Origin: an uncultured Pelagibacteraceae bacterium
Lineage (GTDB): Bacteria > Pseudomonadota > Alphaproteobacteria > Pelagibacterales > Pelagibacteraceae
Assembly (NCBI GenBank): GCA_902571095.1
Contig: CACGAV010000004.1
Span: forward strand, 1-63,171
DNA: 63,171 nucleotides
Reading direction: 5' to 3'
A program made the position numbers and the translations under genes. This document shows positions 46,528 through 47,096 of this stretch, piece after piece. Position 1 is the first letter of the stretch; the number at the start of each line of letters is the position of its first letter. The notes under the pieces were generated by a model. It did not search any database and had not been told where the DNA came from. It saw only the letters and a program-made list of their open reading frames with translations.

Positions 46528-46555
46528 CTTGAAATTTTTTACTTTATAACCATAT
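46528..46555 (+). promoter_or_regulatory. Candidate heat-shock (sigma-32/RpoH) promoter for hsp20
   Basis: CTTGAA (46528-46533), a 16-base spacer and CCATAT (46550-46555) resemble the alphaproteobacterial RpoH consensus. A transcript from here would start near 46562 and carry a leader of about 54 bases that holds the ROSE-like element. Seen by eye only; expression is inferred. Confidence 0.5.
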
Positions 46556-46561
46556 CGAACA

Positions 46562-46615
46562 TATAAGTCGCCAAATGGGACTTATAAATTAACCTTGCTA
46601 ACAAAGGAGGAAAAT
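46562..46615 (+). promoter_or_regulatory. ROSE-like RNA thermometer in the hsp20 leader
   Basis: Two hairpins fill the leader. The first pairs TATAAGTC (46562-46569) with GACTTATA (46579-46586), extended inside by CC/GG. The second pairs CCTTGCT (46593-46599) with AGGAGG (46605-46610), which is the Shine-Dalgarno sequence of hsp20: C-G, C-G, U-A, U-G, a bulged G at 46597, C-G, U-A around a five-base loop. A UUGCU strand with an unpaired G facing the ribosome site is the defining feature of ROSE thermometers before small heat-shock genes in alpha- and gammaproteobacteria. Melting on warming would free the ribosome site. Confidence 0.75.
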
Positions 46616-47056
46616 ATGACAAGTAAGGACATATCTGTCTTTAACTCATTAAGACCTTTCAGCATTGGATTCGATGACATGTTTGATCAGTTTGAGTCTA
46701 TGCTAGGTAACGGAGGATTAGGTGTGCAAACAAATTATCCCCCATACAACATCAGAAAAGCGGGCAAAGATAAGTACGCAATAGAAGTAGCACTTGCAGG
46801 CTTTAACAGAAGTGATGTTGAAATCGAGTATGAAGACAATACTTTAACAGTGAGAACTAAAAAAGTTCAAAAATCTGAAAATAAAGATGGTGAAGAGATT
46901 ATTCATCGAGGAATATCTCAAAGATCATTCTCTAGATCATTTACTGTAGCAGATGATGTAAAAGTAAATGGTGCTGAGTTGAAAGACGGTCTTTTGACTA
47001 TCGATTGTGAAAAAATCTTACCAGAAATAAAAAAGAAAAAAACTAATACCTATTAA
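46616..47056 (+). CDS. ibpA: Small heat-shock protein Hsp20 (IbpA-type)
   Basis: This 146-aa holdase chaperone has a short N-terminal arm (SLRPFSIGFDDMFDQFESML), an alpha-crystallin domain (about 35-125, starting YPPYNIRKAGKDKYAIEVALAG in parts) and a polar C terminus with an I-x-I-like EKILPEIKKKK. The ATG at 46616 is fixed by the strong Shine-Dalgarno AAAGGAGG five bases upstream. The frame extends to 46595, but that start would lie inside the leader hairpin. Expression is probably controlled by heat twice: an RpoH-like promoter and a ROSE-like leader. A strong terminator hairpin follows 11 bases after the stop. Confidence 0.95.
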   Translation: MTSKDISVFNSLRPFSIGFDDMFDQFESMLGNGGLGVQTNYPPYNIRKAGKDKYAIEVALAGFNRSDVEIEYEDNTLTVRTKKVQKSENKDGEEIIHRGISQRSFSRSFTVADDVKVNGAELKDGLLTIDCEKILPEIKKKKTNTY

Positions 47057-47067
47057 ATAAGGTATCC

Positions 47068-47096
47068 TTACTTGCGGAGACAGGCTCCGCAAGTAA
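47068..47096. terminator. Bidirectional hairpin terminator between hsp20 and the deacetylase gene
   Basis: A perfect 12-bp stem pairs TTACTTGCGGAG (47068-47079) with CTCCGCAAGTAA (47085-47096) around a five-base loop. It is the strongest hairpin I found in the window. It lies between two convergent genes, three bases from the deacetylase stop codon. The T run downstream on the plus strand is short and interrupted. Confidence 0.75.

Follow-up and report, generated by a model that had tools for sequence, protein, structure and literature searches.

Few cells in the sea are as common as SAR11 bacteria, which carry little regulation, and the locus described here raises the question of whether the leader RNA of one of their small heat shock genes, hsp20, belongs to the ROSE family of RNA thermometers. 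The window, by which we mean the whole stretch of 63,171 nucleotides that was analyzed, is the entire contig of one SAR11 (Pelagibacteraceae) genome, and the named relatives are Pelagibacteraceae as well. A reading of this stretch from its letters only (the sequence-only reading) had proposed a ROSE-like element in front of hsp20.

The hsp20 locus and its promoter

The gene under control, hsp20, occupies positions 46616..47056 of the plus strand, on which all of the features described here lie, with an ATG start codon at 46616-46618. Its product is an IbpA-like small heat shock protein, recognized by Pfam HSP20 at E 2.1e-17; IbpA is also the top NCBIfam match, at a score below the IbpA cut-off. 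Since a terminator-like hairpin of 12 pairs (47068..47096; a pattern match only) lies 3' of the gene, the transcript probably carries hsp20 as its single gene. Upstream, CTTGAAA (46528..46534) and CCATAT (46550..46555), separated by a 15-nt spacer, can be read in the sequence as the -35 and -10 elements of a promoter that we take to be of the RpoH (sigma-32) type. Such a promoter had already been named by the sequence-only reading, and it is borne out by the 90 relatives' leaders described below, in which a TTGA-type -35 is kept in 87, a -10 with at least 4 of the 6 letters of CCATAT in 85, and the 15-nt spacer in 74, the RpoH type being assigned by likeness. Transcription presumably starts near 46562, and the leader behind the promoter is about 54 nt long. 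One mark of ROSE elements, a position directly 5' of a small heat shock gene and behind a heat-shock promoter, is found here, as judged from the Pfam HSP20 match and from promoter-like sites in 85-87 of the 90 leaders.

The gene has a patchy distribution in genus g1, where the protein search found a match in 10 genomes and none in at least 20 others of the same genus, G001 (95% complete) and G015 (92%) among them. An unusual leader was also encountered in G115 (L005, contig C1), which belongs to the same genus as the window: over 90 nt it shares 87 of 89 aligned bases with L014 and L045 of another genus and only 70 of 89 with its own-genus relative L004, and yet its first 120 coding bases are identical to those of L004 at 120 of 120 positions. 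L005 is perhaps a mosaic of a leader and a coding part brought together by recombination.

Conservation of the two leader hairpins

The family search with the window protein covered 397 genomes and found hsp20 in 288 of them; 80 loci from relatives' contigs, 40 stretches chosen by place, and matches in 28 genomes (mostly divergent) were added. Leaders with incomplete upstream DNA were excluded, and dereplication at 93% identity reduced 174 leaders to 90, with three fragments (L176, L178, and L179) and two divergent hsp20 paralogues that have no UUGCU motif (L177 and L181) left out of the alignment. Two models were built, R1 from the 90 SAR11 leaders and R2 from 49 leaders, 13 of them from outside the family and all from alphaproteobacteria; a second match in L102 was judged to be due to chance and was excluded from the R2 training alignment.

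Hairpin I (46562..46586) is the structure most firmly supported by covariation in these leaders. The sequence-only reading had described a separate 8-bp hairpin here; the hairpin exists, but its real length is 10 bp and it has a bulged G of its own, the UAUAAGUC/GACUUAUA stem being extended beyond bulged G46570 by CC/GG, so that the whole reads UAUAAGUC-G-CC-AAAU-GG-GACUUAUA. The bulge follows the pair C46569-G46579, and CC/GG then close the AAAU loop, an arrangement with the bulged G and CC...GG of the Rfam ROSE and ROSE_3 consensus. Across the 90 dereplicated leaders, two-sided changes occur at 8 of the 10 pairs; the number of cells with such a change is 121, versus 35.4 in shuffles, and 95.6% of cells are paired, versus 29-52% in a control with one strand slid. 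All but two leaders (L172 and L175) retain the bulged G, a count of 88 of 90.

Two further observations concern this hairpin. One SAR11 genus (L158-L160, L163, L165-L167, and L169) has a hairpin I of the form UYGCU-...-AGGG or AGGA that lies far from the start codon and resembles a copy of the ROSE anti-SD/SD hairpin motif. Near-identical copies of hairpin I (GGUCGCCUAAUGGGGCC and GUAGUCGCCUGAUGGGACUAC) also occur at L210 (G414) and L241 (G1065) with no evident heat-shock gene 3' of them, that of L210 being followed by a T run and terminator-like.

Hairpin II, the ROSE hairpin proper (46593..46610), pairs CCUUGCU with AGGAGG around a 5-nt AACAA loop, leaves G46597 bulged, and is predicted to sequester the Shine-Dalgarno (SD) sequence AGGAGG at 46605..46610. 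The sequence-only reading had placed CCTTGCT at 46593-46599, AGGAGG at 46605-46610, and the bulge at G46597; these coordinates are exact and the pairing is possible. It had also tied its proposal to conservation of CCUUGCU/AGGAGG in relatives, and UYGCU with the bulged G is indeed present in 90 of 90 leaders across SAR11 genera. As in hairpin I, the one bulged G stands just before C. Two C-G pairs and one U-A pair are invariant, and another U-A is kept in 88 of 90 leaders; U-G is replaced by C-G in four, a change that corresponds to the U(U/C)GCU alternative described for ROSE elements (PMC3669281). The outer C-G and the inner (top) U-A replace each other in a compensating shift, since only the first is paired in 57 leaders, only the second in 28, both in 5, and neither in 0, although these are related sequences and hence not 90 independent trials. 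Because the pairs that touch the SD vary hardly at all, covariation backs hairpin II only weakly. The 3'-proximal hairpin thus described, with U(U/C)GCU lying imperfectly on the SD around a bulged G, is that of ROSE elements, insofar as the putative pairing forms.

Motif counts are less telling. TTGCT-N3-9-AGGAG occurs once in the window, versus 0.80 expected, and is present in 59 of 100 shuffles; CTTGCT-N3-9-AGGAGG has two sites in the whole genome. The motif alone is not significant; what is significant is that it lies where hsp20 starts and that relatives keep it. As a separate matter, strong SD sites look rare in the window, AGGAGG-N4-9-ATG occurring three times in its 63 kb on both strands. 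FourU thermometers have four consecutive U opposite the SD; only UU lies opposite the hsp20 SD, and the leader does not belong to that class.

Within the genome of origin, R1 reports hsp20 only (E 1.1e-18), the next match standing at E 1.06. Across the family, R2 matches 293 of 397 genomes at E 0.01, including 287 of the 288 that bear hsp20, a figure obtained by comparing the lists by eye (288 - 1 + 6 = 293); the position of the match at hsp20 was verified by eye in 11 of 11 genomes (G033, G061, G081, G107, G111, G115, G125, G126, G129, G145, and G166). The sole hsp20 genome lacking an R2 match, G251, has hsp20 fragments only. Among matched genomes in which hsp20 was not found, G055 has a strong match at a contig end and five others have weak matches only (E 8.6e-4 to 0.0054).

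Predicted folding and rival readings

Folded with ViennaRNA (RNA, 37 C), 46562-46630 has a z of -3.54, and its optimum places CCUUGCU on AGUAAGG in codons 3-5, with the SD not paired to CCUUGCU; when a longer stretch is folded, the register shifts so that CCUU lies on AAGG. Since these minimum-energy folds pair CCUUGCU elsewhere, and since the motif is about as frequent in the window as chance predicts, the ROSE-type pairing rests on comparison. In nearest-neighbour predictions, SD exposure of the hsp20 leader is 0.21 at 5 C and only 0.32 at 42 C; that of five Rfam-recognized ROSE controls rises from 0.21-0.36 to 0.29-0.45, and that of a sixth control, E. coli ibpA, stays at 0.00-0.03, closed at all temperatures. 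Such modeled melting curves do not discriminate, known ROSE controls included, and they have no fair negative control because just two other genes of the window have a usable SD. Removal of G46597 in the folding model gives an SD exposure of 0.00-0.02 at all temperatures, which is the behavior expected of a ROSE bulge. For the short ROSE of Pseudomonas, melting is described in hairpin II and not in hairpin I, the former being sufficient for thermoregulation by itself (PMC3669281).

The beginning of the coding region also appears to be constrained at the nucleotide level (46619..46628, codons 2-4 and the first base of codon 5, ACA AGT AAG G). Among 124 distinct 5' ends, codon 2 is ACA in 123, codon 3 is AGT in 123, and codon 4 is AAG in 124, and yet beyond codon 8 of the same genes AGT accounts for 12.5% of Ser codons and AAG for 18% of Lys codons. 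AGUAAGG at 46622-46628 is a possible partner of CCUUGCU, and pairing between the two would be one explanation of the constraint. Should the longer CCUUGCU/AGUAAGG helix be the working structure, the SD and start codon would lie in a 22-nt loop and SD pairing would be secondary; this helix is the minimum-energy fold of 46562-46630, and the fixation of codons 2-4 by minority codons speaks for it too. As the main structure we reject it and regard it as very unlikely, for it is absent in the deeper SAR11 genera, where the UYGCU strand and the SD are kept and the coding region opens with different codons (L154 could pair in part). Leaders lacking the outer C, moreover, show no matching change in the reading frame, and the helix has a predicted probability of 0.00 on longer stretches. 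Still less can be said for the view that a strong SD and an AT-rich leader gave rise to the SD pairing by accident: the motif count in the window is what chance would give, but conservation, the covarying pairs of hairpin I, the association with hsp20, and the recovery of Rfam ROSE_3 described below all contradict it, and we dismiss it as a practically negligible prospect.

A different kind of alternative holds that the leader is mainly bound by Hsp20 itself, so that it would sense aggregation via free Hsp20 and temperature mostly indirectly, with hairpin I as the contact. E. coli IbpA represses its own translation via its 5' UTR, which it binds in a manner that needs R93, R97, K98, and an aromatic residue at 34 (PMC10474464). 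In all 11 complete SAR11-family proteins, the window's included and the fragment L118 not counted, R93 and Y34 are kept and position 97 is R or K, but K98 is replaced by S or T in ten and by R in one (L180). Hairpin I is strongly conserved, even though in Pseudomonas hairpin II suffices for thermoregulation (PMC3669281), and this too would suit a protein contact; against it, none of the sources consulted assigns IbpA binding to hairpin I. Feedback by Hsp20 on the SAR11 leader is possible but only partly supported, and it would not exclude a thermometer; as the main function of the leader we consider it unlikely.

We prefer, with high though not complete confidence, to read the SAR11 hsp20 leader as a ROSE-type RNA thermometer, short and divergent within that family. 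The ROSE-like proposal made from the sequence is thereby upheld, by the bulged G of hairpin II in every leader and by the covariation of hairpin I, and from this likeness we infer temperature sensing. At normal sea temperature, hairpin II would limit ribosome access to the SD; upon warming, hairpin II would open and hairpin I would stay closed, and translation of the chaperone would rise, adding to RpoH-driven transcription. If true, a thermometer on the small heat-shock chaperone would offer a direct handle on the response of SAR11 to warming. The element is probably overlooked when genomes of this abundant group are annotated, because Rfam release 15 does not report it in the window or at six other SAR11 loci tried. 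In its relevant part, a 2019 survey (PMC6429828) gives a possible RNA thermometer for SAR11 HIMB5 and leaves the gene unnamed. That candidate comes from the same clade and has the same type of proposed function, and it may be the hsp20 element; since the element has perhaps already been seen there, we make no claim of first discovery. The main text of Meyer 2009 on Pelagibacter RNAs (PMC2704228) contains no mention of heat-shock, hsp, ibpA, thermometer, or thermosensor.

Related leaders beyond the family and known ROSE elements

Searches of 385 alphaproteobacterial genomes extend the leader to other families. R1 matched 40 genomes at E <=0.1, 5 of these in the family; outside the family, 14 of its 15 matches at E <=1e-3 precede heat-shock genes, namely 11 hsp20 (8 by Pfam, and L196, L198, and L199 by phmmer with the window protein), 2 rpoH, and 1 dnaK, the remaining one preceding a DUF362 gene (L208). 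R2 matched 56 of the 385 at E 0.05, and 21 of 398 genomes of the phylum. Its 29 matches outside the family at E <=1e-3 in the 385 genomes comprise 20 hsp20 (L196, L198, L199, L213, and L218 by phmmer with the window protein, the other 15 by Pfam), 4 rpoH, 2 dnaK, 1 greA (L232), and 2 without a clear gene (L236 and L257); 13 of them belong to the training set, and the other 16 divide into 9 hsp20, 2 rpoH, 2 dnaK, and 3 that are not heat-shock genes. Between E 1e-3 and 0.05 the R2 matches are mixed, with further hsp20 leaders (by Pfam, L261, L267, L273, and L283) alongside unrelated genes. Outside the alphaproteobacteria, the weak R2 matches are mostly noise, since only 3 of 12 at E 0.05 precede an hsp20-like start. 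A search of 385 genomes at E 0.05 each should yield about 19 matches by chance, and weight is therefore placed only on E <=1e-3; the lon leader L246 (E 0.009), the dnaK leader L212 (R1 E 0.016), and L245 (E 0.006) were accepted as exceptions because a gene or an Rfam match supports them. Set aside as noise or unrelated were L208 (DUF362), L210 (terminator-like), L232 (greA, terminator-like), L236, L257, and L270, and, outside the class, L240, L241, L244, L248-L252, and L254.

Other alphaproteobacteria have leaders that match the models beyond those of hsp20, namely those of rpoH (4 loci: L202, L203, L229, and L230), dnaK (3), and lon (1). The rpoH loci come from three genome families (f22 twice, f95, and f39) and owe their identity to NCBIfam, L203 scoring below the RpoH equivalog cut-off and above that of the sigma-32 subfamily; L202, L203, and L230 have both bulged-G hairpins under a strict pattern, and L229 has the SD hairpin. 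Among the dnaK leaders, the 5' bulged-G hairpin is found in L258 and L212 and the SD hairpin in L207 (same place as L233); the genome of L258, G631, has two matching hsp20 leaders too. In the lon leader the bulged-G hairpin has a 4-bp stem, and about 4 chance matches are expected at its E value in 398 genomes. Rfam gave no match at the seven rpoH, dnaK, and lon loci scanned (all but L212), and a search of openly licensed full texts found no paper that names an element of this kind in the leaders of rpoH, dnaK, or lon of alphaproteobacteria. A broader and rather doubtful proposal, which we offer tentatively, is that the short ROSE would be an ancient alphaproteobacterial heat-shock module that acts post-transcriptionally and is not confined to sHsp genes, its tandem bulged-G hairpins controlling translation of hsp20 and, in several lineages, of rpoH, dnaK, and lon, with hairpin I, whose bulged G extends from SAR11 to E. 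coli, as a site of sHsp feedback. If true, a master regulator and chaperones would be under one shared RNA sensor. The rpoH, dnaK, and lon leaders make it possible to test the claim of a single RNA design serving several layers of the heat-shock response.

The sequence-only reading had looked to the Rfam ROSE models for confirmation, and in this it was disappointed: ROSE, ROSE_2, and ROSE_3 give no match at the SAR11 hsp20 site, even at E 10, in searches of the window and of its own genome. A snoZ119 match in the Rfam scan (E 7.8) was put down to chance. We put the Rfam miss down to the limited reach of the models and do not count an Rfam match among the defining traits of ROSE, given that detection in reverse worked: R2 matches L238 and L245, in the phylum but outside the alphaproteobacteria, at the same place as Rfam ROSE_3. 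When R1 was run on five loci, L238 was recovered at E 5.9e-7 and L245, one of the five, was not reported; L240 (5.4e-6) and L241 (6.8e-5), both without heat-shock genes, were matched in the same search. Nine sHsp leaders chosen independently of the models (E. coli ibpA and eight plasmid loci) were searched for a 5' bulged-G hairpin with at least 5 pairs below the bulge, the last 35 nt of the leader being excluded, and 5 had one, versus 0.09 expected from shuffles. On these nine, R2 gave one match below E 0.01 (L227), and what it matches in the E. coli locus is a site other than the ibpA leader; the R1 and R2 models do not bridge to the classical long ROSE. In E. coli ibpA (L219), nearly all of the 5' bulged-G hairpin precedes the point at which the Rfam ROSE_2 (RF01832) model begins, and the model may have been cut short.

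Among known systems, the classical ROSE elements, with three to four hairpins in all, place one or two of them between hairpin I and the one that bears the SD, and in none of the 90 SAR11 leaders is this the case. The distance between hairpins I and II is 2-8 nt (4-8 in 86 of the 90), and the SAR11 leader is therefore filed as a short rather than a classical ROSE. ROSE_2 (E. coli ibpA) resembles it in the UCGCU strand on the SD and in a 5' bulged-G hairpin, AGGACGC-G-CC-ugau-GG-GUGUUCU, but has a middle hairpin and, as noted, does not match at the SAR11 site. The rhizobial ROSE (RF00435) has a hairpin I consensus, cCgGcc-G-CC-uuau-GG-ggCcGg, with the same bulge, and UUGCU on the SD; it differs in its extra middle hairpin and longer leader, the SAR11 element corresponding to the first and last hairpins only. 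A leader of about 54 bases had struck the sequence-only reading as shorter than classic ROSE leaders, and short it is, but it is no anomaly, for the short ROSE leaders of Pseudomonas measure 61-62 nt and have two hairpins (PMC3669281). ROSE_3 (RF02523), the Pseudomonas ibpA type, differs from the SAR11 leader in that the latter is AT-rich, lacks an Rfam match, and mostly has 6-7 pairs in hairpin II versus 9 in the Rfam consensus; the two are alike in having a short leader with two hairpins, a bulged G in hairpin I, a UYGCU strand on the SD in hairpin II, an sHsp gene, and a sigma-32 promoter (PMC3669281).
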